Source of the DNA: Halisarca cf. caerulea | Lineage: Eukaryota; Porifera; Demospongiae; Chondrillida; Halisarcidae | Assembly (NCBI GenBank): GCA_963170055.1 | Contig: CAUJGJ010000303.1 | Coordinates: forward strand, 96,201-160,200 | Direction: 5' to 3' | Length of the DNA: 64,000 bases | In this document: positions 237 through 24,009 of the stretch, piece after piece | How the letters are laid out: each line of letters begins with the position of its first letter | Position numbering within the stretch: position 1 is the stretch's first letter | Translations under genes and position numbers: made by a program | Notes under the pieces: model-generated | Seen by the model: the letters and a program-made list of their open reading frames with translations, nothing else | Databases searched by the model: none | What the model was told of the DNA's origin: nothing

Positions 237-1297
237 CTAGCCCAACTTGGAGTCAATTGGCATCCGTATTCTCAGACCTTTAGGGATGAGCTTAATAATA
301 TACAACTAACATGTCTAACAACTTCTATGCGTTTGTATCAAGTGAAGAGGTTGTATCAAGTGAATTTATTGAGTTGAGTCTATATTATTTCTATATCTGT
401 ATCAAGAGTAAGCTCATTATAGATGCTATACTGTAACAATTGTTGTAAAGGCCAATGTTTGGTATTAATTAATTTGACCACCTTAAGTTTTCCCCTAGTT
501 TGTCACACGGGTGCAACTCTTATGCCAAGTGCATGTATAGAACATATCGAACATATTTCGCAGCATAATTGACGAATTTCGACGGGAAACTAGCATACTT
601 ACTACGGATATCATTGCGCATGAACATGGCTGTTGACATTCTTCTGCCATGGATGCCGCTTTAGTTTCCAATGCGGTATTTATTCCACCTTATAGATAAG
701 GACACTCTCAAAGTTTATTTTGGAAATTCGCTGTAGTCAGAAAGTACTCGCATCTTTTTCCCAGGAGGAGTTAGCGGACAACCATTTCGAAGGTAAAAGT
801 CGTATTCCTGTCAGGATTCGTCCATACAACAAACATGGCGGCTTGTAGGCTTGTACGGGATATTTTCGAAGTTTCATCATTTCACAAGTAAAAGTGAAGA
901 GGAGCCTTGCAGTCTCTTTACAGAGCCTACAGTTGACGATTGTGAACAGTCATCCGCAGTCAGTCGTAGCCCACGTCAATAAACTGCGAACAAAAAATCG
1001 GCCTACTTTTATTATAATATGATTACATGCTCAACTGTACATAGTCCTAAGTCAAGAACTGCACTCCACAAACTCTATGGTATGTACAAGAGCAATCTTT
1101 TAAGGGACCCGTGAATTATTCTTCTTATCAGAAGTTTTTCTTATCAGACTGCGTACTACAGCAAACCAAACAGGGCTAGGAAACTAGTTTGTGTTAAGCA
1201 GAACTTTGTCTTAATAATGTTCTTCTTAACCAGGTTATACTGTATATATCATTGACTATGTTATGTAGAGTATTCAGAGTGGGTATCTATGTGTAAA
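237..1297. other. Intergenic or intronic DNA, no supported gene
   Basis: No frame here has a recognisable protein. A short frame at 835-891 starts in a good initiation context (AACATGG) and reads MAACRLVRDIFEVSSFHK before a stop, with a possible GT donor near its end. It could be a first exon but nothing supports that. The stretch is probably upstream or intronic sequence of the sulfotransferase gene, since the 5' part of that gene must lie to the left. Confidence 0.4.
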
Positions 1298-1321
1298 CCT
1301 ACACTATTGTATGTTTTGTAG
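1298..1321 (+). promoter_or_regulatory. Probable splice acceptor of the sulfotransferase exon
   Basis: A T-rich stretch ends in TTTTGTAG at 1321. The sulfotransferase frame is open immediately after it (EYRKFTLMRDPLER), and the TAG itself would be an in-frame stop. Conservation of the family extends upstream of the first methionine (a KF[LT]xxRDP pattern). The acceptor therefore explains the exon start better than the ATG at 1343. Confidence 0.6.
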
Positions 1322-1969
1322 GAGTATAGAAAGTTTACTCTCATGCGAGACCCACTGGAACGCATTGTGTCAGGGTACAATAACAAGATTAACCATCCTC
1401 TAAGCAAGAACCAATCTGTATTTCCAGAGTTTGTAAAGTATGACATTCTGAAGAGATTTTCTCCTCAGTCTATTCAAGAGTATGAGGCTTCTAATAGAAG
1501 GGCTGAGGTGATTCCCACTTTTGAGGACTTCTTGCAATATCTTGCAGCTGCTGATCAGGACATGCTGAATGAACATTTCAAATCATTCATGAAGCTCTGT
1601 CATCCTTGCTATGTTGACTATCACTTTTATGGTAACTTTAAACTGTTACCAGATGAAGCATTCACAATGATGGACCATTTCAATATTCCTAGAGAGTATT
1701 ATCCTTTAGCTGTATCCCACCCTGGTCTTAGCACATCCAATCTCCTTCCTCTATACTACTCAAATATGACACCACAACAGAAAGTTGTATATGCAAGAGA
1801 GCTGGCAGCTTCTCACCATGCTTCCATGCCTCAATTCCCCCACAAAATCCTATCGGAGCAACTGTACAGTACTATCGTGTCTACTTTTTTGGATGATCTT
1901 GAATTGTACTATGCCCTTTATCCAGAAGAAAAGCGAAAGCATAATGAATATAGGGACAGTAGCTTATAG
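1322..1969 (+). CDS. Carbohydrate sulfotransferase (Sulfotransfer_2 / HNK-1ST family), 3' exon
   Basis: This is the C-terminal exon of a Golgi sulfotransferase that would transfer sulfate from PAPS to a glycan. The exon encodes about 215 residues. Near its start is RDPLERIVSGYNNK, which fits the 3'-phosphate-binding motif (RDPxERLVSxYxNK). Counting from the ATG at 1343, the block KLCHPCYVDYHFYGNF at about residues 84-99 matches the conserved CxPC-x-DYxFxGxxE region of chondroitin/dermatan/HNK-1-type sulfotransferases. The tail LYSTIVSTFLDDLELYYALY resembles the usual C-terminal helix. The 5'-phosphosulfate motif and the signal anchor are missing and must lie in upstream exons; I did not find them in this window. 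The frame ends at TAG 1967-1969 and no clear AATAAA follows within 200 bp. The family assignment is firm, but the glycan substrate cannot be told. Confidence 0.85.
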   Translation, partial: EYRKFTLMRDPLERIVSGYNNKINHPLSKNQSVFPEFVKYDILKRFSPQSIQEYEASNRRAEVIPTFEDFLQYLAAADQDMLNEHFKSFMKLCHPCYVDYHFYGNFKLLPDEAFTMMDHFNIPREYYPLAVSHPGLSTSNLLPLYYSNMTPQQKVVYARELAASHHASMPQFPHKILSEQLYSTIVSTFLDDLELYYALYPEEKRKHNEYRDSSL

Positions 1970-2171
1970 TATAATTATACAGGTGTATGTGTCTCTAGTA
2001 TTATGCCTTACAACTGTCTCAAGTGTTTATCGTAGCATTATGTTACTATGCTTTATGTGACAACAGTAATTTTTGTATAACGGAACTCCATGGACTGTGT
2101 ATAATGATTATTATTATTGTTGATCACTTATGAATATCATTATAATAATATGAAGAAACATTGTATACAAT

Positions 2172-2415
2172 GTAGCTAATTTATTTTCTCAGTTATTTGC
2201 AATTCTTGCAATTTCATGCTATTCTAGCATTCTTATGCATGTTTCATGTATTAACAAAGTCATTAAACTTATATCTGCGCTGCTTTCTCAAATACATGTT
2301 CTGTGCAAGAAATAAAAATTAGCTAATTTGTTTACTACGTTATTTGGAATTCTGGCAATTTCATGCTATTCTTGCATTCATATGCATGTTTCCTGCATTA
2401 ACGTCATTAAACTTT
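2172..2415 (-). repeat. Diverged 147-bp satellite monomers, outer edge
   Basis: About 1.6 monomers of the same 147-bp satellite that fills 22673-64000, in the opposite orientation. Diagnostic stretches are GCAATTCTTGCAATTTCATG, the dyad around ATGCATGTTTCATG, and CATTAACAAAGTCATTAAAC. The copies differ from the main array at many sites, as expected for the ageing edge of a satellite block. The second copy is cut at about 2415 by an insertion. Confidence 0.8.
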
Positions 2416-3466
2416 GCAGGTATAACGTGCCTTTTCAGGAAACAGAGGGGCATTGTGTGGTTTATAAAGTAATTTCATTTATTAATCACACGTTTTACTG
2501 ATATGCACGTGTTAGTCACGTGTATATTTGCATGAAGATAATATTATAGGCCTTCTTGTTCTCAAATAGAAGAATATTTGATCAAAAATTGTATTATTCT
2601 ACACAAAAAGTGTTTTTAAGACGTTCTTAAGGTTATTCGTTCTGTTTTCGATTTCACCGATTGTTACCGTTGGTTTTTGACGTCATTATTTCGTGTGATA
2701 ACCTTGTGACTAAAGGCGAGAGAAAGACTTCTTCACTGACTGAAATTCTTTCGAAAACCCGGATATCTAAACGGCTGTGTAGAGGAGCCATGTCACGGGA
2801 GTTAGATCACGATAGGTATATCTAAATTTTCACCGTTGGAGATTTTGATAGCTTGCTCCATTCCCGACATGTGCACAAGTTTGTGGTTGTGTCTTGGGTC
2901 AAAACCAACATTTCGATGGACATCTTAGGAACGAAGAGGAATGGTAAGTTCTCCAACAGTGAAAATTTAGATATTGTTGTTGGAAGGTTCTTAACAAAGT
3001 NNNNNNNNNNNNNNNNNNNNNNNNNNNNNNNNNNNNNNNNNNNNNNNNNNNNNNNNNNNNNNNNNNNNNNNNNNNNNNNNNNNNNNNNNNNNNNNNNNNN
3101 NNNNNNNNNNNNNNNNNNNNNNNNNNNNNNNNNNNNNNNNNNNNNNNNNNNNNNNNNNNNNNNNNNNNNNNNNNNNNNNNNNNNNNNNNNNNNNNNNNNN
3201 ATGGCTGTTCTAAACGATGGTTTATATAACCGGGTTTTGCACTAAACTCTTTTTCAAGGTCCGAATCTGTGGTAGTTTTTTCGGCATTGCAAAGCATTGA
3301 CAACAAAGTTAAGTGAACTGTTGTAACGTTAAATAGTTGAATTAATGTTTTATGTACTTGTTGTACTCCATATGCACACTGAACGAAAGTAAAGTGGGGG
3401 TTGATTTCTGCCGACTTTAGGGCAGCCATTTTGTCTACTGCTCACATGTGCACATGTTACACCTGC
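2416..3466. mobile_element. Putative DNA transposon inserted in a satellite monomer
   Basis: Satellite sequence stops at CATTAAACTT (about 2414) and resumes at TATGCGCTGCTTTCTC (3471). The intervening piece begins GCAGGTATAACGTG and ends CATGTTACACCTGC, so the two ends are imperfect inverted repeats. I could not define a clean target duplication. A 200-N gap hides the middle. A frame at 2853-3000 with ATG 2916 runs into a good splice donor (AATGGTAAGT near 2940-2949). On the other strand an ATG at 3429 (MAALKSAEINPHF) opens a frame to the gap. Neither protein is recognisable. Confidence 0.4.
3001..3200. other. Assembly gap of exactly 200 N
   Basis: Exactly 200 undetermined bases, the usual sign of a scaffold gap of nominal or estimated size. 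Frames that appear to cross it are not real. Confidence 0.99.
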
Positions 3467-6248: not shown

Positions 6249-6752
6249 AGAAATAAAAATTTAGTTACTTTCTTTTCTAAGTTATATGCAATTCTTGCAA
6301 TTTCATGCTATTCTTGCATTCTTATGCATGTTTCATGCATTAACGTCATTATAATTAAACTTATATCTGCGCTGCTTTCGCAAATAAATGTTCTCTTTAA
6401 GTAATAAAAATTAGCTAATTTGTTTTCTCAGTTATTTACAATTCTTGCAATTTCATGCTGTTCTTGCATTCTTATGCATGATTCATGCGTTAACAAAGTC
6501 ATTAATCTTATAGCTGCTCTGCTTTCTCAAATAAATGTTCTGTGACAGAAATAAAGTTGGCTAATTTCTTTTCTAAGTTATATGCAATTCTTGCATTTTC
6601 ATGCTATTCTTGCATTCTTATGCATGTTTCATGCATTAATAAAGTCATTAAACTTAAATCTGCGCTGCCTACTCAAATAACTGTTCCGTGTAAGAAGTAA
6701 AAATTAACTAATTCTTTTCTAAGTTATATGCAATTCTTGCAATTTCATCCTA
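6249..6752 (-). repeat. 147-bp satellite, about 3.4 diverged monomers
   Basis: Tandem copies in minus orientation, for example GCAATTCTTGCAATTTCATG at about 6290, 6440 and 6730. They lie between the 2742-bp element and the Tigger-like element. The dyad is in the altered form ATGCATGTTTCATGCAT in several copies. The last monomer is interrupted at its TA (6751-6752). Confidence 0.85.
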
Positions 6753-6840
6753 CCGTACGCGTACAAACTTTCGCGGGACTAAACTTTCGCGGTTGCCGGA
6801 TTTTGACGATTTTCACGGGACTAAATTTTCGCGGATGCTA
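6753..6840 (+). repeat. Left inverted end with iterated TTTCGCGG motifs
   Basis: The first 40 bp (6753-6792, starting CCGTACGCGTACAAACTTTC) match the right end inverted. Copies of AAACTTTCGCGG or the variant AAATTTTCGCGG recur at about 6764, 6781 and 6823. Iterated subterminal motifs of this kind are often transposase-binding sites; that role is inferred. Confidence 0.75.
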
Positions 6841-7151
6841 TGCTAGAAGTAATTAATTAACTTTTCACATTTACTATTTCCGAATTATAATGACCGTCGT
6901 AGTGCAAGTCGCTCTCGTCTTGTCTATGTGGCAAAGCCTTCCCTGTTGTTTTAGCTACTGTTCTGCCACAACTTTATGTTTAAGGATGCACGTTAGCTAC
7001 AATACTTGTGATTGAGTTGGAGAAAGCTGTTGCTTGAACCAGCGGTGCAAGACGACAACTTCGAAGGGGCTAATGAACGTCTTGACATTAAAGTGAGACC
7101 AGCAGAAAGTGTGAAGTTTATTGCTAGCCTTTTCGAAGTATTGTAGTAAAA

Positions 7152-8333
7152 ATGTTTGAGATTGAAAGTTGTGTTTGTGGATTTCATGTTTATGGAGCAT
7201 CCTGGAGTCCATATGTAGGAGAGATTCTCTACTGCATACGTGAATTTGGAAACAGAGAAGACCCGTATGCTGTTGCTGTTCAATCCTCTTCGAATAGCAC
7301 TGTGGGCCATGTTCCACGGAAGATTTCTTGCGTCTGCTCGCTATTTTTACGTCGTGGTGGAAGAATCACCTGCTCTGTCACTGGTTAAAGGAGAAGGAGT
7401 GAGGATTTACCCCAGGGTGGACTATAAATCCCATGTTCACTGGTATTTGAAGGCTCTGGTGATTTGGAGGAAAAGGCAAGGCATCGTATTAAGGAAATCA
7501 TGCAATGCATATTACTAAAGAAGTTGTTGCCCGAGAAGCGTTCAGCAGGCATTTCTAGAGACACCGCTGAGTCTGAAGAACCTGCAGCGGCGAAACCTAC
7601 AGAGATATTCCCGAGGAACCTGTAGCAAAACCTACAGAGGACCTTCCTCAGGAGCCTGCAACAGAACCTACAGAGGACCTTTCCCAGGAACCTGTAGCAA
7701 AACCTATGAAGGAACTTTCCCAGAGGCATCAGCCAAATGTGCTATCGGACCTGCCTAGTACTAAATTGGGGGAACAGACAGCTCAACAGCCTCAGCCTTC
7801 TGATCAATATATATATGGTTACGCTGTCAAGACATAGTTTTGACATTAGGGATCGTCATATACTCACAGATGGTGAGTTGCTTGAAGACCAGCACTTAAA
7901 CTTCGCACAGCGCCTTATCAAGATTCAGTTTCCACTCATAAACGGTTTGCGATTGACAGTGTTGCAAAATCAAGCGCATAGTCGCCCAACATCAGGTGCT
8001 TTACAGATAATGCACATTAAAGGAAATCACTGGATTGTGGCAGCTAGTGAATCTAATGGAAAAACTGTGTGTGTATATGACAGTTTGTACTCTTCCCTTA
8101 ATAGTGAAGATGCTAGCATTGTCCAAACGAACTTCCGATGCAGATTGGAGGCAATTCAACATGCAAGATGCCAGAGGCAGAAAGGTGGGAGTGACTGTGG
8201 CCCCTTTGCCATAGCTATGGCTACATCCCTTGCTTTTGGGGAAAACTCCAGCAGCAGAGAGTATTTACAGGAAGAGATGCGCTCTCACATTGTAAAGTGC
8301 TTTGAGAACTGTAGTTTGGAGTTGTTTTCATAG
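7152..8333 (+). pseudogene. HIRAN domain - repeat linker - Ulp1/C48 protease, decayed
   Basis: The ATG at 7152 opens a HIRAN-like domain (GFHVYGASWSPYVGEILYC, then NREDPYAVAV and VGHVPRKIS), a fold that binds DNA 3' ends in HLTF/Rad5 proteins. Two in-frame TAA stops (7386, 7425) interrupt it; after them the same frame resumes with DLPQGGL and IPCSLVFEG. A one-base loss near 7605 shifts into a linker of repeated EPxxxPTEDL units. A second shift near the AT run at 7807-7816 leads into the protease domain. Numbered from the ATG at 7737, its catalytic residues are all present: His98 (GNHWIVA), Asp115 (VYDSLY), Gln148 and Cys154 (GGSDCGPFA). It ends at TAG 8331-8333. Such proteases remove SUMO or ubiquitin-like tags. 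The protease part alone is still open for about 170 codons. The position inside the transposon suggests cargo. Confidence 0.8.
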
Positions 8334-8364
8334 ATGTTAGACTTTAAGTTAGATTTATTAAAAC

Positions 8365-8420
8365 AAGTAATTCGAGTTAAAAACTCGTGGGGGCTGCCGC
8401 CCCACGCACTCGAATCACTT
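8365..8420. terminator. Compound hairpin just after the protease gene
   Basis: The outer arms AAGTAATTCGAGT (8365-8377) and ACTCGAATCACTT (8408-8420) pair with one mismatch. Two inner stems lie within: CGAGTT/AACTCG (8373-8387), which competes with the outer arm, and GTGGGG/CCCCAC (8387-8405). It begins 31 bp past the protease stop, between convergent genes. A role in transcript ending is inferred. Confidence 0.45.
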
Positions 8421-8593
8421 GCAAAGCATTGGAGTGTAAGTGCACAGCTGAACATTCATTGAACATACTGTTTATTGTAACTGCATGGACGGTTGTTTTG
8501 AAAACAATTCCTGTAACACATTCCTGTATAAATTCATGCTTCTCTATTACTATTATATAAATTCTCTATTATAAGACTTCTTCAAATCCATAT

Positions 8594-8614
8594 TATATAT
8601 ATATATATATATAT
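8594..8614. repeat. (AT)n microsatellite
   Basis: Ten uninterrupted AT units between the two hairpins. Confidence 0.95.
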
Positions 8615-8655
8615 CGGACGAGCGTTACACACCGGAAGTCCAAATGAAAACAATA

Positions 8656-8680
8656 TAGGGGCTGCCTGTGGCAGCCCCTA
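8656..8680. repeat. Perfect 11-bp stem hairpin
   Basis: TAGGGGCTGCC, a TGT loop, then GGCAGCCCCTA: a perfect 11-bp stem with a 3-base loop. It shares GGGGCTGCC with the hairpin at 8365-8420, so the two may be related. Confidence 0.85.
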
Positions 8681-8956
8681 AAAATTCAAGATTGAAGAGT
8701 TTACTTGTTAAATTGATGATTTGTGTTCTTACATGCAATGATATTGAGCAAAATTTGAGAGTAACACAAAAAATCACTGACAGAATCATGATCGCATGCA
8801 TAAAGCATATACCATGTAATAATACAGTATATACCAGACAACACCTAGTATGTATTACGGTAACCATAATATGTACTATTAGAAGTTTAAATAAATTAAA
8901 ACAATTTGAAAATAAATGTACTATATACTGTAGCTATAGGTTAGGAGCTATATAGG

Positions 8957-10395
8957 TCATGCAGGCAGAACATCTGCAACTGCATCATAAATGCCTGCAC
9001 TGCGGAAGCCATTAATAGCTCTTTACGGCTTTCAATTTCAGTTACTGTTTCTATCAGCCACCTTGCTCCCAACGGCTTCATCACCGAGAGTCAAAGGTCA
9101 ACAGGCTTTACTTAAGATGACACTTTCAGCTGTCAGGTGATTTGGTCTGCATACCAAGACTGAAACTTTGATCTTAAAATATCCTTCACAGGTTTGTTTA
9201 TGCTAAGGTCAAGTGGTTGTAGACGACCAGTACAGTGTGGTGGCACTTTAGCAACCACAATGTTGTTAGATTCTAGAACTTGCAAAAACGTATCTGTCAA
9301 CTGCCCCTTGAATTGATCAAAAATCACCAATGCTGGGTGAGTTGATGGCAGTCCATACTCCTGTCTCGTCTTGTGAAGATATGGAATCAGTATGGTGTGT
9401 ATGTACTTGAGCATGGTGCTCTCATTGGCCCAGTGATTAGGGGTGTACATGACGTACCAGTCCACCGGGAATTTTACGGTCTTTGGAAGGCATGCAGGTG
9501 TTTTCCCAGCATAAATCAACTGTGGAGGTAAAAAGTCTCCACGCACAGAACAAGTAAAAACCGCTGTAATTTGCCGTTTGTCGTCAATAGCAGCAATCGG
9601 CACTTTTGTGGCTCCTTTCGTTTCCAGTGTCTATGAAGACGTGGGCACATAATTTAGGCCTGTATGGTCCCAGTTCAAGATGAGGGCTGGTGGAATGTTG
9701 TCAAAATGAACAATGGTCCTTATGTCGGATAAAAACTGATCCCTAAGTTGAGAGAAATCTTCCGGTGTCAGCTTGGCTTTGGTTGATCCCCTTCTCTTTA
9801 CAAAGTTCAGCCTGCCCAGGAGTCTTCTTGCAATTGGCTTATCAATTCGTAGAGGACCACCATTTTCGACAAGGAGATTGCTATCACTATCCCTGATTAT
9901 CCCCTTGATCATTCCAATAACAACTGAGTTATTGATGACTCCTCCACTATCCCTAATATTCAGGATTACCGCTTTAGCTTTCTCTTCCACTTCTTGACCT
10001 AGCAGCAGTGGACGACCTGAAGCCTGTTTAATTGGTTCTTTCACGTCAGGTACCCTGCCATCTTGACTTCTACTGATTCTGGCAATGGTTAAACAGTGGT
10101 CTTTCTTCCACCCTCGGACCGTGCTCTCCTTCAGGTACAAGCCTTCTTCTACTTCGTAATGGCGAATAGCTGCCGCAATGCCATTCTCGGCCGCATATTT
10201 GGCTATTTTGGCTCTAGTTTCAGCAGAGAGCTTGCCATAAGCTCCTCGCTTCTTTGATGATGACGCCTTTTCAATCTCTTTGTAAACAGCTTGCGCGGTA
10301 GAAACTGGAAGAACCTCTTCCAGGTTATCTGTTGGCTCAGACCTCTTCGCGGGGGTGAAGTAAGACTTGATCGACATCCTGACGGAACACGGCAA
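8957..10395 (-). pseudogene. pogo/Tigger-like DDD transposase, decayed
   Basis: The frame starts at 10395 (MPCSVRMSIKSYF). An N-terminal helix-turn-helix region (KRGAYGKLSAETRAKIAKYA to STVRGWKK) resembles Psq/Tigger DNA-binding domains. The catalytic core shows three aspartates in the usual contexts: LILNWDHTGLNY, ALVIFDQFKGQ and LQPLDLSINKPVKD. TAG at 9631-9633 replaces a tryptophan expected after VPTSS (the TGG to TAG change is inferred); the same frame continues TLETKGATKVPIAAIDDKRQ. After WYADQIT come three more in-frame stops (9133, 9112, 9091), then LSVMKPLGARWLIETVTEIE. A shift near 9018 leads to the family's C-terminal motif INGFRSAGIYDAV and a stop at 8957. One gene, clearly inactive in this copy, with the catalytic residues kept. 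Confidence 0.85.
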
Positions 10396-10538
10396 CTGAA
10401 TACCCTTCCACGGACTATAAACTCTTGCGCTGTGGCATTCTTTTGTTTACTCCCTTGTTGTGCATTGTCTTCTGTTCCAACGGTCCTTTATTGCGATCCC
10501 GGCGTTTTTTTATTATTGCTATATATGTATATCAATAT

Positions 10539-10622
10539 TCGCGGTACTAAATTTTCGCGGAAGCTGAGTTCAACCGCGAAAACCGCGAAAGTTTAGTCCA
10601 GCGAAAGTTTGTACACGTACGG
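10539..10622 (-). repeat. Right inverted end with iterated TTTCGCGG motifs
   Basis: 10583-10622 is the inverted match of 6753-6792 and ends in CACGTACGG. AAATTTTCGCGG in direct orientation near 10550 and CCGCGAAA copies near 10574 and 10583 add subterminal repeats in both orientations, which could form hairpins. Confidence 0.8.
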
Positions 10623-11127
10623 TATTCTTGCATTCTTATGCATGTTTCATGCATTAACAACATCATTAAACTTAAATCTGCGCTGCTTTCTCTAATAAAT
10701 GTTCTGAGCAAGAAACAAAATTAGCTAATTTCTTTTCTAAGTTATTTGCAATTCTTGCAATTTCATGCTATTCTTGCATTCTTATGCATGTTTAACGCAT
10801 TAACAAAGTCATTAAACTTATAGCTGCGGTGATTTGTCAAATAAATTGTTCGTGTCAGAAATAAAAAAAATCGCAAATTTCTTTTCTAAGTTATTTGCAA
10901 TTCTTGCAATTTCATGCTATTCTTGACTTCTTATGCATGATTCATGCATTAACAAAGTCATAAGACTTATATATAGCTGCGGTGATTTGTCAAATAAATT
11001 GTTCATGTCAGAAATAAAAAATCGCACATTTCTTTTCTGAGTTATTTGCAATTCTTGCAATTTCATGCTATTCTTGACTTCTTATGCATGATTCATGCAT
11101 TAACAAAGTCATCAAACTTATATATAT
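10623..11127 (-). repeat. 147-bp satellite, about 3.4 monomers, minus orientation
   Basis: Continues the monomer cut at 6752. From about 10740 the copies carry the same variants as the main right-hand array (TGACTTCTTATGCATGATTC, GATTTGTCAAATAAATTGTT), whereas the copies left of 10740 are of the diverged edge type. The array stops at CAAACTTATATATA, where 104-bp repeats begin. Confidence 0.85.
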
Positions 11128-12049
11128 CTGTGTAACATTGGTTTGCTTGTGTTAATACAAATATTTGGCACTAGCACCACGCACATTCCCAGTGGACACA
11201 CATGAAGTTTCTGAAGTGCTGTTGGCGTATCTGTGTAGTTTTCGATATGCTGGTGCTAATACCAATATTTGGCACTAGCACCACGCACATTCCCAGTGCA
11301 CACACATAAAGTTTTTTAAGTACTCTGGGCGTATTTGTGTAGTTTTGGATATGCTATGCTAATATCAATATTTGGCACTAGCACCACGCACATTCCCAGT
11401 GGACACTCATAAAGTTTCTGAAGTGTTGTGGGCATATCTGTGTAATGTTAAATATGCTGGTGTTAAGACCAATATTTCGCACTAGGACCACGCACATACC
11501 AAGTGGACAAACATGAAGTTTTTGAAGTGCTGTGGGCGTATTTGTGTAGGGTTGGATACGCTGGTGCTAATTCCAATATTTGGCACTAGCACCACGCATA
11601 TTCCCAGTAGACACGCATAAAGTTTCAGAAGTACTGTGGGCGTATTTTTGTACTGTTGGATATGGTGGTTCTAAAACCAATATTTGGTACTAACACCACG
11701 CACATTCCCAAACATGAAGTTTCTGAAGTGTTGCGGGCATATCTGTGTAGTGTTAAATATGCTGGTGTTAAGACCAATATTTGGCATTAGCACCATGCAC
11801 ATTCCCAGTGGAAGCACATTAAGTTTCTGTAGTGCTGTGGGCATATTTATGTAGTGTTGGATATGGTGGATCTAAGACCAATAATTGGCACTAAAACCAC
11901 GCACATTCCCAGTGGACACACATGAAGTTTCTGAAGTGCTGTGAGCATATTTGTGTAGTGTTGGATATGGTGGTTCTAAGACCAATATTTGGCACTATCA
12001 CCACGCACATTGTCAGTGGACACACATGAAGTTTCTGAACTGCTGTGGG

Positions 12050-13140
12050 CGCATTTATGTAGTTTTGGATATGGTGGTTCTAAGACCAATATTTGGAGTA
12101 GCACCACACACATTCCCAGTGGACACACATGAAGTTTCTGGAGTGCCGTTGGTGTATCTGTGTAGCATTGGATATGCTTGTGTTAATACAAATATTTGGC
12201 ACTAGCACCACGTACATTCCCAGTGGACACACATGAGGTTCCTGAAGTGCTGTGGGCGTATCTGTGTAGTGTTGGATACGCTGGTGCTAATACCAATATT
12301 TGGTACTAACACCACGCACATTCCCAGTGGACACACATAAAGTTTCTGAAGTACTGTGGGCGTATTTGTCTAGTGTTGGATATGTTGGTTCTAAGACTAA
12401 TATTTGGCACTAGCGCCACGCACATTTCCAGTGGACACGCATTAAGTTTCTGAAGTACTGTGGGCGTATTTGTGTACTGTTGGATATGGTGGTTCTAAGA
12501 CCAATATTTGGTACTAGCACCACGCACATTCCCACACATGAAGTTTCTGAATTATTGCGGGCATATCTGCGTAGTGTTAAATATGCTGGTGTTAAGACCA
12601 ATATTTGGCATTAGCACCACGCACATTCCCAGTGGAAGCACATTAAGTTTCTGTAGTGCTGTGGTCATATTTGTGTAGTGTTGGATATGGTGGTTCTAAG
12701 ACTAATATTTGGCACTAAAGCCACGCACATTCCCAGTGGACACACATGAAGTTTCTGAAGTGCTGTGGGCATATTTGTGTAGTGTTGGATATGGTGGTTC
12801 TAAGACCAATATTTGGCACTAGCACCATGCACATTGCCAGTGGACACACATGAGGTTTCTGAACTGCTGTGGGCGCATTTATGTAGTTTTGGATATGGTG
12901 GTTCTAAGACCAATATTTGGAGTAGCACCACCCACATTCCCAGTGGACACACATGAAGTTTCTGAAGTGCCGTTGGTGTATCTGTGTAGCATTGGATATG
13001 CTTGTGTTAATACAAATATTTGGCACTAGCACCACGTACATTCCCAGTGGACACACATGAGGTTCCTGAAGTGCTGTGGGCGTATCTGTGTAGTGTTGGA
13101 TACGCTGGTGCTAATACCAATATTTGGTACTAACACCACG
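12050..13140 (+). repeat. 824-bp duplication within the 104-bp array
   Basis: The marker TGCCGTTGGTGTATCTGTG recurs at about 12142 and 12966 with matching neighbours. The interval of about 824 bp equals eight monomers with one 96-bp variant. The limits given are approximate. Confidence 0.6.
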
Positions 13141-16100
13141 CACATTCCCAGTGGACACACATAAAGTTTCTGAAGTACTGTGGGCGTATTTGTCTAGTGT
13201 TGGATATGGTTATTCTAAGCCCAATATTGGGTACTAGCACCACGCACATTGTCAGTGGAAACATATGAAACTTCTGAAGTGCTGTGGGCGTATTTCTGTA
13301 GTGTTGAAAATGCTGGTGATTAGACCAATATTTATCACTAGCACGACACACATTCCCAGTGGACACACATGAAGTTTCTGAAGTGTTGTGGGCGTATCTG
13401 TGTAGTTTTAAATATGCTAGTGTTAAGACCAATATTTGGCACTAGCACCACGCACATTCCTAGTGGACACACATGAAATTTCTGAAGTACTGTGGGCATA
13501 TTTGTGTAGAGTTGGATATTCTGTTTCTAAAACCAATATTTGGAACTAGCACCACACACATTGTCAGTGGATACACATGACGTTTCTGAACTGCTGTGGG
13601 AGTATTTGTGTACTATTGGATATGCTGGTGCTAATACAAATATTTGGCACTAGCACCACGCACATTAAAAGTGGACACACATGAAGTTTCTGAAGTGCTG
13701 TGGGCGTATTTCTGTAGTGTTGAATATGCTGGTGATTAGACCAATATTTATCACTAGCACGACACACATTCCCAGTGGACACACATGAAGTTTCTGAAGT
13801 GTTGTGGGCGTATCTGTGTAGTTCTAAATATGCTAGTGTTAAGACCAATATTTGGCACTAGCACCACGCACATTCCTAGTGGACACACATGAAATTTCTG
13901 AAGTACTGTGGGCATATTTGTGTAGAGTTGGATATTCTGTTTCTAAGACCAATATTTGGAACTAGCACCACACACATTGTCAGTGGATACACATGACGTT
14001 TCTGAACTGCTGTGGGAGTATTTGTGTACTATTGGATATGCTGGTGCTAATACAAATATTTGGCACTAGCACCACGCACATTAAAAGTGGACACACATGA
14101 AGTTTCTGAAGTGTTGTGGGCGTATCTGTGTAGTGTATAATATGCTGGTGCTAATACCAATACTTTGTACTAGCACCACGCACATTCCCAGTGGACACAC
14201 ATGAAGTTTCTGAATTGCTGTGGGGGTATTTGTGTACTATTGGATATGCTGGGGGTAACACAAGTATTTGGCACTAGCACCACGCACGTTCAATGTGGAC
14301 ACACATGAAGTTTCTGAAGTGCTGATGGCGTATTTGTGTAGCGTTGGATACGCTGGTGCTAATACCAATATTTGGCACTAGCACCACGCACATTCCCAAT
14401 GGACACACATGAGGTTTTTGAAGAGCTGTGGGCGTATTTGTGTAGTGTTGGATATGGTTGTTCTAAGACCAAAATTTGGCACTAGCACCATGCACATTCC
14501 CAGTGGACACGCATGAAGTTTCTTAAGTGCTGTGGGCGTATTTGTGTACTATTGGATATGCTGGTCCTAATACCAATATTTGGCACTAGCACCATGCACA
14601 TTCCCAGTGGACACACATGAGGTTTCTGACGAGCTGTGGGCGTATTTGTGTAGTGTTGGATATGGTTGTTCTAATACCAATATTTGGTACTAGCACCACG
14701 CACATTGTCAGTGGATACACATGAAGTTTCTGAAGTGCTGTGAGCGTATTTGTGTAGTGATGAGTATGGTGGTTCTAGACCAAAATATGGCACTAGCACC
14801 ATGCACATTCGCAGTGGACGCGCATGAAGTTTCTTAAGTGCTGTGGGCGTATTTGTGTACTATTGGATGTGCTGGTGATTAGACCAATACTTGGCACTAG
14901 CACCACGCACATTGCCAGTGGACACACATGAAGTTTCTGAAGTGTTGTGGGCGTATCTGTGTAGTGTTAAATATGCTGGTGTTAATACAAATATGTCGCA
15001 CTAGCAACACGCACATTCCCAGTGGATACACATGAAGTTTCTGAAGTGCTGTGGGCATATTTGTGTACTGTTGGATATGGTGGTTCTAAGACTAATATTT
15101 GGTACTAGCACCACGCACATTCCCACACATGAAGTTTGTGAAGTGTTGTGGGCATATCTCTGTAGTGTTAAATATGCTGGTGTTAATACCAATATTTGGC
15201 ATTAGCACCACGCACATTCCCAGTGGAAGCATATCAAGTTTCTGTAGTGTTGTGGGCATATTTGTTTAGTGTTAGATATGGTGGTTCTAAGACCAATATT
15301 TGGCACTAAAACCACGCACATTCCCAGTGGATAAACATGAAGTTTCTGAAGTGCTGTGAACATATTTGTGTAGTGTTTTATATGCTGGTGCTAATGCCAG
15401 TATTTAACACTAGCACCACGCACATTGCCAGTGGACACAAATGAGGTTTGTGAAGAGCTGTGGGCGTATTTGTGTAGTGTTGGATATGGTTGTTCTAAGA
15501 CCAATATTTGGTACTAGCACCGCGCACATTGTCAGTGGATACACATGAAGTTTCTGAAGTGCTGTGGGCGTAATTGTGTACTATTGGATATGCTGGTGCT
15601 AATACAAATATTTGGCACTAGTACCACGCACATTCATTGTGGACACACATGAAGTTTTTGAAGTGTTGTGGGCGTATCTGTGTAGTGTATAATATGCTGG
15701 TGCTAATGCAAATACTTGGCACTAGCACCACACACATTCCCAGTGGATACACATGAAGCTTCTGAAGTGCTGTGGGTATATTTGAGTAGTGTTGGATATG
15801 TTGGTTCTAAAATCAATATTTGGCACTAGCACCACGCACATTCCCAGTGGACACACATGAAGTTTCTGAAGAGCTGAGGGCATATTTATGTAGTGTTGGA
15901 TATGGTGGTTCTAAGACCAATATTTGGAACTAGCACCATGCACATTGTCAGTGGATACACATGAATTTTCTGAAGTGCTGTGGGCGTAATTGTGTACTAT
16001 TGGATATGCTGGTGCTAATACAAATATTTGGCACTAGTACCATGCACATTCATTGTGGACACACATGAAGTTTTTGAAGTGTTGTGGGCGTATCTGTGTA

Positions 16101-16330
16101 GTGTATAATATGCTGGTGCTAATGCAAATACTTGGCACTAGCACCACGCACATTCCCAGTGGATACACATGAAGCTTCTGAAGTGCTGTGGGTATATTTG
16201 AGTAGTGTTGGATATGTTGGTTCTAAAATCAATATTTGGCACTAGCACCACGCACATTCCCAGTGGACACACATGAAGTTTCTGAAGAGCTGAGGGCATA
16301 TTTATGTAGTTTTGGATATGGTGGTTCTAA

Positions 16331-19300
16331 GACCAATATTTGGAACTAGCACCATGCACATTGTCAGTGGATACACATGAAGTTTCTGAAGAGCTGTGGG
16401 CATATTTATGTAGTTTTGGATATGGTGGTTCTAAGACCAATATTTGGCACTAAAACCATGCACATTCCCAGTGGACACACATGAAGTTTCTGAACTGCTG
16501 TGGGCGTATTTGTGTAGTGTTTTATATGCTGGTGCTAATGCCAATATTTAACACTAGCACCACGCACATTGCCAGTGGACACAAATGAGGTTTCTGAAGA
16601 GCTGTGGGCGTATTTGTGTAGTGTTGGATATGGTTGTTCTAAGACCAATATTTGGTACTAGCACCGTGCACATTGTCAGTGGATACACATGAAGTTTCTG
16701 AAGTGCTGTGGGCGTATTTGTGTACTATTGGATATGCTGGTGCTAATACAAATATTTGGCACTAGTACCACGCACATTCAATGTGGACACGCATGAAGTT
16801 TTTGAAGTTTTGTGGGCGTATCTGTGTAGTGTATAATATGCTGGTGATAATGCAAATACTTGGCACTAGCACCACGCACATTCCCAGTGGACACACATGA
16901 AGTTTCTGAAGTGTTTTGGGCATATATCTGTAGTGTTAAATATGCTGGTGTTAAGACGAATATTTCGCAATAGCACCACGCACATTCCCAGTGGATACAC
17001 ATGAAGCTTCTGAAGCGCTGTGGGTATATTTGAGTAGTGTTGGATATGGTAGTTCTAAAATCAATATTTGGCACTAGCACCACGCACATTCCCAGTGGAC
17101 ACACATGAAGTTTCTGAAGAGCTGTGGGCATATTTATGTAGTGTTGGATATGGTGGTTCTAAGACCAATATTTGGAACTAGTACCATGCACATTGTCAGT
17201 GTATACACATGAAGTTTCTGAAGAGCTGTGGGCATATTTATGTAGTTTTGGATATGGTGGTTGTAAGACCAAAATTTGGCACTAGCACCATGCACATTCG
17301 CAGTGGACACGCATGAAGTTTCTGAAGTACTGTGGGCGTATTTGTGTACTATTGGATATGCTGGTGCTAATACAAATATTTGGCAATAGCACCGCTCACA
17401 TTCAAAGTGGAGACACGTGAAGTTTCTGAAGTGATTTGGGTGTATTTGTGTACTAATGGATATGCTGGTGCTAATACAAATATTTGGCACTAGCACCAGG
17501 TGCATTCAAAGTGGACTCACATGAAGTTTCTGAAGTACTGTGGGCGTATTTGTGTAGTGTTGGATACGCTGGTGCTAATACCAATATTTGGTACTAGCAC
17601 CACGCACATTCCCAGTGGACACGCATGAAGTTTCTGAAGTGCTGTGGGCGTTTTTGTGTACCATTAGATATTCTGGTGCTAATACAAATATTTGGCACTA
17701 GCACCATGCACATTCCCAGTGGACAAGCATGAAGTTTCTGAAGTGCTGTTGGCGTATTTGTGTACCATTGGATATGCTGGTGCTAATACAAATATTTGGC
17801 GCTAGCACCACGCACATTCAAAGTTGGCACACATGAAGATTCTGAAGTGCTGTGGGCGTATTTGTGTAGTGTTGGATACGCCGGTGCTAATACCAATGTT
17901 TGGCACTAGCACCACGCACATTCCCAGTAGACATGCATGAAGTTTCTGAAGTACTGTGGGCGTATTTGTGTACTTTTGGATATGGTGGTTCTAAGACTAA
18001 TATTTGGTACTAGCACCACGCACATTCCCACACATGAAGTTTGTGAAGTGTTGCGGGCATATCTGTGTAGTGTTAAACATGCTGGTGTTAAGACCAATAT
18101 TTGGCATTAATTAGCACCACGCACATTCCCAGTGGAAGCACATTAAGTTTCTGTAGTGCTGTGGTCATATTTATGTAATGTTGGATATGGTGGTTCTAAG
18201 ACCAATATTTGGAACTAGCACCATGCACATTGTCAGTGGATACACATGAAGTTTCTGAAGAGCTGTGGGCATATTTATGTAGTGTTGGATATGGTGGTTC
18301 TAAGACCAATATTTGGCACTAAAACCATGCACATTCCCAGTGGACACACATGAAGTTTCTGAACTGCTGTGGGCGTATTTGTGTAGTGTTTTATATGCTG
18401 GTGCTAATGCCAATATTTAACACTAGCACCACGCACATTGCCAGTGGACACAAATGAGGTTTCTGAAGAGCTGTGGGCGTATTTGTGTAGTGTTGGATAT
18501 GGTTGTTCTAAGACCAATATTTGGTACTAGCACCGTGCACATTGTCAGTGGATACACATGAAGTTTCTGAAGTGCTGTGGGCGTATTTGTGTACTATTGG
18601 ATATGCTGGTGCTAATACAAATATTTGGCACTAGTACCACGCACATTCAATGTGGACACGCATGAAGTTTTTGAAGTTTTGTGGGCGTATCTGTGTAGTG
18701 TATAATATGCTGGTGATAATGCAAATACTTGGCACTAGCACCACGCACATTCCCAGTGGACACACATGAAGTTTCTGAAGTGTTTTGGGCATATATCTGT
18801 AGTGTTAAATATGCTGGTGTTAAGACGAATATTTCGCAATAGCACCACGCACATTCCCAGTGGATACACATGAAGCTTCTGAAGCGCTGTGGGTATATTT
18901 GAGTAGTGTTGGATATGGTAGTTCTAAAATCAATATTTGGCACTAGCACCACGCACATTCCCAGTGGACACACATGAAGTTTCTGAAGAGCTGTGGGCAT
19001 ATTTATGTAGTGTTGGATATGGTGGTTCTAAGACCAATATTTGGAACTAGTACCATGCACATTGTCAGTGTATACACATGAAGTTTCTGAAGAGCTGTGG
19101 GCATATTTATGTAGTTTTGGATATGGTGGTTGTAAGACCAAAATTTGGCACTAGCACCATGCACATTCGCAGTGGACACGCATGAAGTTTCTGAAGTACT
19201 GTGGGCGTATTTGTGTACTATTGGATATGCTGGTGCTAATACAAATATTTGGCAATAGCACCGCTCACATTCAAAGTGGACACACATGAAGTTTCTGAAG

Positions 19301-20068
19301 TGATTTGGGTGTATTTGTGTACTAATGGATATGCTGGTGCTAATACAAATATTTGGCACTAGCACCAGGTGCATTCAAAGTGGACTCACATGAAGTTTCT
19401 GAAGTACTGTGGGCGTATTTGTGTAGTGTTGGATACGCTGGTGCTAATACCAATATTTGGTACTAGCACCACGCACATTCCCAGTGGACACGCATGAAGT
19501 TTCTGAAGTGCTGTGGGCGTTTTTGTGTACCATTAGATATTCTGGTGCTAATACAAATATTTGGCACTAGCACCATGCACATTCCCAGTGGACAAGCATG
19601 AAGTTTCTGAAGTGCTGTTGGCGTATTTGTGTACCATTGGATATGCTGGTGCTAATACAAATATTTGGCGCTAGCACCACGCACATTCAAAGTTGGCACA
19701 CATGAAGATTCTGAAGTGCTGTGGGCGTATTTGTGTAGTGTTGGATACGCCGGTGCTAATACCAATGTTTGGCACTAGCACCACGCACATTCCCAGTAGA
19801 CATGCATGAAGTTTCTGAAGTACTGTGGGCGTATTTGTGTACTTTTGGATATGGTGGTTCTAAGACTAATATTTGGTACTAGCACCACGCACATTCCCAC
19901 ACATGAAGTTTGTGAAGTGTTGCGGGCATATCTGTGTAGTGTTAAACATGCTGGTGTTAAGACCAATATTTGGCATTAATTAGCACCACGCACATTCCCA
20001 GTGGAAGCACATTAAGTTTCTGTAGTGCTGTGGTCATATTTATGTAATGTTGGATATGGTGGTTCTAA
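16331..20068 (+). repeat. Tandem 1869-bp duplication in the 104-bp array
   Basis: 16331-18199 is repeated as 18200-20068. Shared rare variants sit exactly 1869 bp apart (the GGCATTAATTAG insertion, CACCAGGTGCATTC, GCCGGTGCTAATACC). Only a few differences are visible, such as GAGACACGTG near 17410 against GACACACATG near 19279. It equals 18 monomers with small indels. The near identity points to a recent event or an assembly duplication. Confidence 0.85.
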
Positions 20069-21289
20069 GACCAATATTTGCCACTAAAACCACGCACATT
20101 CCCAGTGGACACAAATGAGGTTTCTTAAGAGCTGTGGGCGTATTTGTGTAGTGTCGGATATGGTGGTTCTAAGACCAATATTTGGCACTAGCACCACGCA
20201 CATTGTCAGTGGATACACATGAAGTTTCTGAAGTGCTGTGGGCGTATTTGTGTACTATTGGATATGCTGGTGCTAATAAAAATATTTGGAACTAGCACCA
20301 CGCACATTCAAAGTTGACACACATGAAGTTTTTGAAGTGTTGGGGGTGTATCTGTGTAGTGTATAATGTGCTGGTGCTAATACAAATACTTGTCACTAGC
20401 ACCACGCACATTCCCAGTGGACACACATGAAGTTTCTGAAGTGTTTTGGGCATATCTCTGTAGTTTTAAATATGCTGGCTTTAAGATTTCGCAATAGCGC
20501 TACGCACATTCCCAGTGGATACACATGAAGCTTCTGAAGCGCTGTGGGTATGTTTGTGTAGTGTTGGATGTGGTGGCTCTAAAACCAATATTTGGCACTA
20601 GCACCACGTACATTCCCAGTGGACACACATCAAGTTTTTCTGAAGAGCTGTGGGCATATTTATGTAGTGTTGGATATGGTGGTTCTAAGACCAATATTTG
20701 GAACTAGCACCATGCACATTGTCAGTGGATACACATGAAGTTTCTGAAGTGTTGTGGGCGTATTTGTGTACTATTGGATATGCTGGTGCTAATACCAATA
20801 TTTGGCAATAGCACTACGCACATTCAAAGTGGACATACATGAAGTTTCTGAAATACTGTGGGCGTATTTGTGTACTGTTGGATATGGTAGTTCTAAGACT
20901 AATATTTGGTACTAGCACCACGCACATTCCCACACATGAAGTTTCTGAAGTATTGCGGGCATATCTGTGTAGTGTTAAATATGCTGGTGTTAAGACCAAT
21001 ATTTGGCATTAGCACCACGCACATGCGCAGTGGAAGCACATTAAGTTTCTGTTGTGCTGTGGGCATATTTGTGTAGTGTTGGATATGGTGGTTCTAAGAC
21101 AAATATTTACCACTAAAACCACGCACATTCCCAGTGGATAAACATGAAGTTTCTGAAGTGCTGTGAGCATATTTGTGTAGTGTTTAATATGGTGGTTCTA
21201 ACACCAATATTTGGAACTAGCACTATGCACATTGTCAGTGGATACACATGAAGTTTCTGAAGTGCTGTGAGCATATTTGTGTTGTGTTG

Positions 21290-22672
21290 GGTATGGTGGT
21301 TCTAATGCCAATATTTGGTACTAGCACCATGCACATTCCCAGTGGATACACATGAGGTTTGTGAAGAGCTGTGGACGTATTTGTGTAGTGTTGGATATGG
21401 TTGTTCTAAGACCAATAATTGTTACTAGCACCACGCACATTGTCAGTGGATACACATAACGTTTCTGAAGTGCTGTGGGCGTATTTGTGTAGTGTTGGAT
21501 ATGGTGGTTCTAAGACAAAAATTTGGCACTAACACCACGCACATTCTCAGTAGACTCGCATGAAGTTTCTGAAGTGCTGTGGGCGTATTTGTGTAATGTT
21601 GGATTTGGTGGTTCTAAGACTAATATTTGGCACTAGCACCACGCACATTCCCACACATGAAGTTTCTGAAGTATTGCGGGCATATCTGTGTAGTGTGAAA
21701 TATGCTGGTGTTAAGACTAATATTTGGCATTAGCACCACGCACATTCCCAGTGGAAGCACATTAAGTTTCTGTAGTGCTGTGGGCATATTTGTGTAGTGT
21801 TGGATATGGTGGTTCTAAGACAAATATTTACCACTAAAACCACGCACATTCCCAGTGGATAAACATGAAGTTTCTGAAGTGCTGTGAGCATATTTGTGTA
21901 GGGTTGGATATGGTGGTTCCAATGCCAATATTTGGCACTAGCACCATGCACATTCCCAGTGGACACACATGAGGTTTGTGAAGAGCTGTGGACGTATTGT
22001 GTAGTGTTGGATATGGTTGTTCTAAGACCAATAATTGTTACTAGCACCACGCACATTGTCAGTGGATACACATAGCGTTTCTGAAGTGCTGTGGGCGTAT
22101 TTGTGTAGTGTTGGATATGGTGGTTCTAAGACCAAAATTTGGCACTAACACCACGCACATTCTCAGTAGACTCGCATGAAGTTTCTGAAGTGCTGTGGGC
22201 GTATTTGTGTAATGTTGGATTTGGTGGTTCTAAGACTAATATTTGGCACTAGCACCACGCACATTCCCACACATGAAGTTTCTGAAGTATTGCGGGCATA
22301 TCTGTGTAGTGTGAAATATGCTGGTGTTAAGACTAATATTTGGCATTAGCACCACGCACATTCCCAGTGGAAGCACATTAAGTTTCTGTAGTGCTGTGGG
22401 CATATTTGTGTAGTGTTGGATATGGTGGTTCTAAGACAAATATTTACCACTAAAACCACGCACATTCCCAGTGGATAAACATGAAGTTTCTGAAGTGCTG
22501 TGAGCATATTTGTGTAGGGTTGGATATGGTGGTTCCAATGCCAATATTTGGCACTAGCACCATGCACATTCCCAGTGGACACACATGAGGTTTGTGAAGA
22601 GCTGTGGACGTATTTGTGTAGTGTTGGATATGGTTGTTCTAAGACCAATAATTGTTACTAGCACCACGCACA
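21290..22672 (+). repeat. 616-bp duplication at the right end of the 104-bp array
   Basis: Two successive blocks of about 616 bp and a partial third. The marker GTGGAAGCACATTAAG recurs at about 21750 and 22366, and CTCAGTAGACTCGCATG at about 21543 and 22161. 616 bp is six monomers, one of them the 96-bp variant. The left limit is approximate. Confidence 0.7.
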
Positions 22673-24009
22673 TAAGTTTTATGACTTTGTTAATATGCAT
22701 GAATCATGCATAAAAAGTCAAGAATAGCATGAAATTGCAAGAATTGCAAATAACTTAGAAAAGAAATTTGCGATTTTTTATTTCTTACCAGGATAATTTA
22801 TTTGACAAATCACCGCAGGTATAAGTTTTATGACTTTGTTAATGCATGAATCATGCATAAGAAGTCAACAATAGCATGAAATTGCAAGAATTGCAAATAA
22901 TTTAGAAAAGAAATTTGTAATTTTCTATTTCTGACACAAACAATTTATTTGACAAATGACCGCAGCTATAAGTTTTATGACTTTGTTGATGCGTGAATCA
23001 TGAATAAGAAGTCAAGAATAGCATGAAATTGCAAGAATTGCAAGTAACTTAGAAAAGAAATTTGCCATTTTTTATTTCTTACTAGGACAATTTATTTGAC
23101 AAATCACCGCAACTATAAGTTTTATGATTTTGTTAATGCATGAATCATGCATAAGAAGTCAAGAATAGCATGAAAATGCAAGAATTGCAAATAACTTAGA
23201 AAAGAAATTTGCGAGTTTTATTTCTGACCAGGACAATTTTTTTGACATATGACCGCAGCTATAAGTTTTATGACTTTGTTAATGCATGAATCATGCATAA
23301 GAAGTGAAGAATAGCATGAAATTGCAAGAATTGCAAATAACTTAGAAAAGAAATTTGCGATTTTTCATTTCTTACCAGGATAATTTGTTTGACAAATCAC
23401 CGCAGCTATAAGTTTTATGACTTTGTTAATGCATGAATCATGCATAAGAAGTAAAGAATAGCATGAAATTGCAAGAATTGCAAATAACTTAGAAAAGAAA
23501 TTTGCCATTTTTTATTTCCTACTAGGACAATTTATTTGACAAATCACGGCAGCTATAAGTTTTATGACTTTGTTAATGCATGAATCATGCATAAGAAGTC
23601 AAGAATAGCATGAAATTGAAGAATTACAAATAACTTAGAAAAGAAATTTGCGATTTTTTATTTCTGACACCAACAATTTATTTGACAAATCACCGCAGCT
23701 ATAAGTTTTATGACTTTGTTAATGCATGAATCATGCATAAGAAGACAAGAATACCATGAAATTGTAAGAATTGCATATAACTTAGAAAAGAAATTTGCGA
23801 TTTTCATTTCTGACACGAACAATTTATTTGACAAATCACCTCAGCTATGAGTTTTATGACTTTGTTAATGCATGAATCATGCATAAAAAGTCAAGAATAG
23901 CATGAAATTGCATGAATTGAAAATAACTTAGAAAAGAAATTTGCGATTTTTTATTTCTTACCAGGAGAATTTGTTTGACAAATGACCGCAGCTATAAGTT
24001 TTATGACTT

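Follow-up and report, generated by a model that had tools for sequence, protein, structure and literature searches.

The window analysed here is a stretch of 64,000 nucleotides from Halisarca cf. caerulea (C280:96201-160200, in a genome of 194 Mb and 454 contigs), and positions 6753-10622 within it hold a degraded copy of a pogo-like cut-and-paste transposon with two genes. Its features are as follows.

6751..6752, no strand: left TA target-site copy, from inverted-repeat and flank alignment.
6753..6794, plus strand: left terminal inverted repeat, beginning CCGTACG, with TTTCGCGG subterminal repeats; the type common to 16 of 18 spanning loci.
7152..7385, plus strand: HIRAN domain (Pfam, 24.3 bits, E 2.8e-5), narrowly missing the curated cut-off of 24.7.
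7152..8333, plus strand: HIRAN-Ulp1 gene remnant with several frame breaks, from open reading frames and protein matches.
7593..7723, plus strand: 36-bp tandem repeat encoding the variable HIRAN-Ulp1 linker, from a repeat search.
7833..8330, plus strand: Ulp1 (C48 peptidase) with His-Trp, Asp, Gln and Asp-Cys-Gly (Peptidase_C48, 34.9 bits, cut-off 20.7).
8364..8679, no strand: later 316-bp insertion, outside the two-gene system, from DNA comparison with other copies.
9133..10377, minus strand: transposase gene, as an N-terminal piece (9631-10377) running to a stop and then a DDE_1 piece (9133-9630), from open reading frames and profile.
10581..10622, minus strand: right terminal inverted repeat, from an inverted-repeat search.
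10623..10624, no strand: right TA target-site copy, from inverted-repeat and flank alignment.

The element proper has inverted ends of 42 bp with TA on each side. The inverted arms at 6751-6794 and 10581-10624 measure 44 nt with TA counted and are 95% complementary; because they contain the TA copies, the element without TA runs from 6753 to 10622. The surrounding DNA is a local satellite with a period of 146-151 bp, and the flanks, when fused through a single TA (an empty-site check made on the window copy only), align unbroken to neighbouring monomers (88% over 162 bp at 6526-6686, with further matches). The complementary arms and the unbroken satellite join bear out the boundaries given in a preliminary description of this DNA, which had been drawn from the inverted ends, TA copies and restored satellite site, and the Pfam matches to HIRAN, Peptidase_C48 and DDE_1 agree with the transposase and decayed HIRAN-C48 gene that it placed inside. 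The 316-bp insertion is missing at the same point in three other copies (C308, C290, and C369:7592944), and stretches similar to it occur elsewhere on C290 and C40.

The HIRAN-Ulp1 gene (plus strand) is convergent with the pogo-like DDE transposase gene (minus strand), and both are broken in the window copy. The former is scattered over several frames. The latter has an in-frame stop at 9631-9633, from which the frame is open to 9133, with a DDE_1 match in 9133-9630 on the minus strand (48.7 bits, cut-off 22, E 8.6e-13), and the C-terminal NGF..AGI motif, present in the consensus, can be traced by eye to approximately 8980. Four copies of the same family (C308, C290, C369:3811447, and C369:7592944) have main protein matches that are 93-96% identical to the window copy and main DNA blocks that are 94.4-97.7% identical to it; C369:7592944 also has two short side matches at the protein level (79-80%). 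The HIRAN-Ulp1 gene of the C308 copy is a single open frame of 391 aa.

Several features of the predicted transposase support a pogo-type element, the class to which it had previously been assigned. DDE_1 is found in all 37 members of transposase set A2, and the triad has DD35D spacing, with D239 and D391 invariant and D355 present in at least 90% of these sequences (P0001 numbering); all three are present in each of nine in-genome transposase genes. The target is TA, and HTH_Tnp_Tc5 is matched in 7 of the 37 transposases, with no match in the window copy. A PDB search with the transposase profile returned no match.

The product of the second gene is probably an active Ubl deconjugase. Across 56 sequences, the Ulp1 catalytic set occurs in the correct order, with H238, D255, and C295 invariant and Q289 present in at least 90%, and departures from it are rare among the in-genome genes. 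The HIRAN profile is matched by 54 of the 56 at E ≤ 0.01, the window copy and P0121 lying a little under the curated cut-off, and the Asn/Asp at the positions of HLTF N91/D94 is nearly always kept. Structure models match the SENP/Ulp1 and HLTF HIRAN folds (the HIRAN fold comparison was made with the relative P0121), while a PDB search with one HIRAN sequence gave four chance-level matches, HLTF not among them.

The preliminary description regarded the HIRAN-Ulp1 gene as cargo and asked whether other copies keep it, whether it sits inside the ends, whether intact copies exist and whether the two genes co-evolve. The genome was searched with three protein pieces, giving 150 scored rows from 217 candidates for Ulp1, 114 rows for the transposase and 150 rows from 350 candidates for HIRAN; when merged, these represented 96 transposase loci and 140 Ulp1 loci among the matches listed. 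The gene is indeed kept elsewhere: among the matches listed, a convergent Ulp1 lies within 3.5 kb of 48 of the 96 transposase loci, and chance would place Ulp1 near a transposase, in either orientation, at approximately 0.0066 per locus, or approximately 0.6 in total. Because the full counts take in fragments, the 44 strongest transposase loci (≥140 bits) were also considered. A convergent Ulp1 lies within 3.5 kb in 33 of these and within 12 kb in 38 (among the matches listed), and at least one of the five extra loci at 3.5-12 kb, C369:3811447, has an insertion. A convergent Ulp1 within 12 kb or a convergent HIRAN within 4.5 kb accompanies 41 of the 44. Counting against a constant pairing, six of the 44 loci gave no detected convergent Ulp1 within 12 kb; three of these keep HIRAN and three have neither. 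Wherever HIRAN and Ulp1 occur together among the HIRAN rows listed, HIRAN is upstream (55 of 55).

A multicopy host HIRAN-Ulp1 gene family, beside which transposons land by accident, would fit the many HIRAN and Ulp1 matches in the genome that have no detected partner (of the 150 HIRAN rows listed, 45 have both partners, 10 have Ulp1 only, 7 have the transposase only, and 88 have neither). However, Ulp1 is nearby in another orientation at only 1 of the 96 transposase loci, and the two genes share one pair of ends. Both genes occur together in 33 stretches, of which 18 span enough DNA on both sides to be assessed (the other 15 are too short), and in 16 of the 18 both genes are enclosed by an inverted pair starting TACCG, TACTG, or TACCA; a pair of this type was not found at C308 and C40:807269. 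We therefore consider accidental landing beside host genes to be very improbable. The bounded elements are 2.7-3.9 kb long, apart from one of 7.3 kb that holds an insertion, and fall into eight families when grouped by protein similarity. The pair is thus enclosed by TA-flanked, TACCGTA-type inverted repeats and is kept across many families. Some families are young, as shown by the transposase genes of C79, C114, C281, and C105, which differ pairwise by 1-4 changes per 481 codons, and intact copies do exist, both frames being open, for example, on C79 (HIRAN-Ulp1/transposase, 339/481 aa), C2 (341/485 aa), and C369 (336/471 aa).

The two genes also share a history. Open-frame pieces of both were available from 25 loci, from which nine near-identical copies were removed to leave 16, two of which (C369:3523486 and C369:14152811) still belong to one family. 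The protein distances of the two genes are correlated (112 pairs; Mantel r of 0.51, with 0 of 5,000 permutations as high), and both trees of the 16 loci contain the same 7|9 split and the same four-member groups around the window family and around C369:3178958. Tree support is mixed, with starred inner branches numbering 3 of 13 for HIRAN-Ulp1 and 4 of 13 for the transposase; the 7|9 split has support of 89/87 in the HIRAN-Ulp1 tree. Among 10 HIRAN-Ulp1 genes, the fraction of comparisons showing a difference is 0.47, 0.39, and 0.66 at codon positions 1, 2, and 3; the corresponding values for nine transposases are 0.42, 0.30, and 0.65. Pairwise dN/dS values are mostly approximately 0.3 to 0.7, with two above 1, several being drawn from a small number of changes or from decayed, interrupted frames, and between recent copies they are too noisy to stand alone as strong evidence. 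The gene pair shows signs of selection.

Decay of the window copy might be expected if HIRAN-Ulp1 were a chance nested insertion or a passenger gene acquired by one copy. Nevertheless, the pairing is recurrent, constant in order and orientation, enclosed within ends and co-evolving, and on these grounds such an origin is rejected as extremely improbable. HIRAN-Ulp1 is almost certainly a stable functional component of these transposons. Co-inheritance of the pair across related transposons implies a probable role in their moving or escaping silencing, and the pair is therefore likely to be a working part of transposition or of silencing avoidance.

The term cargo understates the standing of HIRAN-Ulp1 as a regular second gene. 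A HIRAN gene lacking Ulp1 is, moreover, paired with the transposase in a distant pogo-like lineage, represented by one locus (L075).

C3:2018500-2022000: HIRAN-only gene of 126 aa at 731-1111 (plus strand), convergent with a transposase gene of 562 aa at 1278-2966 (minus strand).

The L075 transposase exceeds the profile cut-offs for DDE_1 and HTH_Tnp_Tc5, has a CENP-B_N match below the cut-off, and is only approximately 25% identical to the window transposase. The two genes are separated by 166 bp, which leaves no room there for Ulp1. Among the eight transposase rows with ≤30% identity, all weak matches, HIRAN is convergent in five and Ulp1 in none, the HIRAN table leaning towards the L075 lineage because it includes a search with the L075 HIRAN itself. 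A search for inverted ends at L075 gave three weak pairs, none of them convincing. The existence of this lineage suggests that the HIRAN partner may be older than the Ulp1 fusion or that Ulp1 has since been lost there.

HIRAN-Ulp1 could act as follows. The second gene would make a SUMO-type (Ulp1/SENP) deconjugase, which HIRAN would bring to 3′-OH DNA ends; the likeliest of these are the ends that transposase action exposes on the transposon and at the donor site. Removal there of SUMO or a related modifier, whether from the transpososome, from repair factors or from chromatin, would then let the complex escape dismantling or silencing, allowing transposition to succeed. The HIRAN of HLTF binds 3′-OH ends (PMC11237066), while another group reports a preference for fork-like junctions (PMC4666394), and a host factor of Sleeping Beauty, a Tc1/mariner transposon, is regulated by SUMOylation (PMC10138897). 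A HIRAN-tethered, SUMO-type deconjugase acting at DNA ends on the transposition complex or on silencing factors is the mechanism that we consider probable; that recruitment to the ends formed in transposition is its main role is plausible, although we stop just short of favoring it.

There are two serious rivals to an end-tethered deconjugase. First, the main targets of the protease may be factors on element chromatin that take part in SUMO-dependent heterochromatin or in small-RNA silencing, and HIRAN would then serve only as a DNA tether. The SUMO-protease fold of the modelled protein is consistent with this, and other DNA transposons bear enzymes of epigenetic marks, e.g., TET/JBP in fungal transposons, for which an escape from silencing has been proposed (PMC12730594). 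Against this, what HLTF HIRAN recognizes is not intact chromatin but DNA ends or fork-like junctions (PMC11237066; PMC4666394), and escape through deSUMOylation leaves unexplained why HIRAN without Ulp1 also partners transposases; we judge it unlikely. Second, HIRAN may cap the freed 3′ ends and prevent HLTF/Rad5-type translocases from stripping off the transposase, with Ulp1 as an added guard against SUMO-driven removal. In isolation, the HIRAN of HLTF hinders HLTF from removing Cas9 from cut DNA ends (PMC11237066), a HIRAN-only gene adjoins the distant pogo-like transposase, and three loci keep HIRAN without a detected Ulp1 among the matches listed. However, end binding by the present HIRAN is itself predicted, and within the window transposase lineage HIRAN occurs more often fused to Ulp1 than by itself, so that end capping, too, is a rather doubtful candidate.

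Returning to the end-tethered deconjugase, a broader proposal, which we make tentatively and think less likely than not to hold in full, is that there is an animal pogo-like class of two-gene transposons built on HIRAN. HIRAN alone would be the older or simpler state, with one large lineage having gained the SUMO protease (or others having lost it), and HIRAN-Ulp1 would be an end-guided deSUMOylase guarding the transposition complex from removal by the host. We know of no cut-and-paste transposon with a counter-defense based on a DNA-end-guided deSUMOylase. The HIRAN-only partner of the second lineage provides a natural control for separating DNA-end binding from protease action.

The pogo superfamily of IS630-Tc1-mariner comprises Tigger, Passer, Fot, pogoR, Lemi, and Mover; published DDD spacings include DD35D for Passer and Fot, and the DNA-binding domains are CENP-B_N, HTH_Tnp_Tc5, psq, or Brk, with none detectable in Mover (PMC7386202). 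The present elements share with this superfamily the TA target, short inverted ends, DDE_1, DD35D spacing and, in some members, HTH_Tnp_Tc5. In contrast to the elements described in that survey, which have one or two open reading frames encoding transposases (PMC7386202), a separate HIRAN-Ulp1 gene is common here. The word “ulp1” does not occur in the text of this survey (PMC7386202), nor does “protease” in that of a survey of pogo-like elements (PMC7325037).

Ulp1-type proteases have been described in DNA transposons of several unrelated kinds, where their roles are proposals (PMC2836005, PMC3212892), and the earlier statement that they are known in other transposon groups is confirmed by Ginger1 and Mutator (PMC2836005) and by Cryptons (PMC3212892). 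Ginger1 is an animal DNA transposon with an Ulp1 (or OTU) protease, proposed to aid transposition, but the protease is the C-terminal part of the integrase-like transposase (PMC2836005), whereas here it is fused to HIRAN in a separate, convergent gene; membership of Ginger1 is rejected because the protease gene lies on the opposite strand. In CryptonF and CryptonS a C48 peptidase lies beside the transposition enzyme, as an additional protein in some CryptonS, but these are tyrosine-recombinase elements, the peptidases named are from oomycetes, and HIRAN is not mentioned in the portions of that source available (PMC3212892). Mutator elements likewise carry an Ulp1 domain but have a Mutator-type transposase (cited in PMC2836005). 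The HIRAN of HLTF/Rad5 resembles the present domain in fold and in the Asn/Asp at the N91/D94 positions, but its partner in HLTF is an SWI/SNF translocase and ubiquitin ligase instead of a protease.

Among the literature matches listed, drawn from a collection without subscription journals and presumably without Repbase Reports, no HIRAN-Ulp1 transposon was found by title or start of abstract. Viral contigs (scanned with A1 and A2) and prokaryote genomes (scanned with A1) yielded no relatives; these collections are, by description, not animal genomes, and the result therefore shows only that the fusion is not common there. Protease-bearing DNA transposons are thus already known, and the fusion of HIRAN to Ulp1 in pogo-like elements appears to be new among the literature matches listed. 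Because the protease is joined here to a domain whose DNA ligand is known, and is inherited along with compact elements that in some cases keep both reading frames open, the question of why transposons carry SUMO/ubiquitin proteases becomes directly testable. The test system is compact (two small proteins in an element of roughly 3 kb), and its functional handle appears sharper than that of the protease-bearing transposons described earlier.

Match positions place HIRAN, with Ulp1 undetected, at three loci of the window's transposase lineage on other contigs of the genome:

C64:158460-159853, HIRAN present, Ulp1 undetected
C452:470921-472952, HIRAN present, Ulp1 undetected
C369:7180119-7182303, HIRAN present, Ulp1 undetected

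None of these loci had an Ulp1 among the matches listed (the best 150 of 217 candidates), and the positions suggest a putative loss or absence of the protease at each. Ulp1 domains also occur within open frames of 292 to 613 amino acids at C2:2971931, C3:1337542, C182:1690615, and C346:35997, all with equal score and equal identity in the Ulp1 search of the genome. No HIRAN lay nearby among the matches listed (the best 150 of 350 candidates), and these frames probably represent another mobile family bearing Ulp1.

The left end of the window element has many weaker matches across the genome (about 79 to 85% over 73 to 86 bp), which, from their sequence, are probably ends of related repeats, perhaps nonautonomous ones. 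On contig C5, two such sequences face each other across a gap of about 40 bp:

C5:1047112-1047184, (-), weaker left-end match
C5:1047223-1047306, (+), weaker left-end match

Other features were delimited in the window, the satellite arrays by TRF up to position 25000 and by BLAST matches past it:

8364-8679, 316-bp insertion within the element, with G+C-rich hairpin ends
11144-22673, large satellite array, 104-bp unit, 111 copies
22672-64000, large satellite array, 147-bp unit

Stretches resembling the insertion are present on contigs C290 and C40. The 147-bp unit is related to the satellite that received the element and lies in opposite orientation.

At locus L075 (C3:2018500-2022000), a gene with HIRAN only is convergent with a distant pogo-like transposase (the pair covering 731-2966 within the locus), an arrangement found at four further loci. 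The first catalytic position of the L075 transposase reads NMEET, whereas NMDET is the usual motif.
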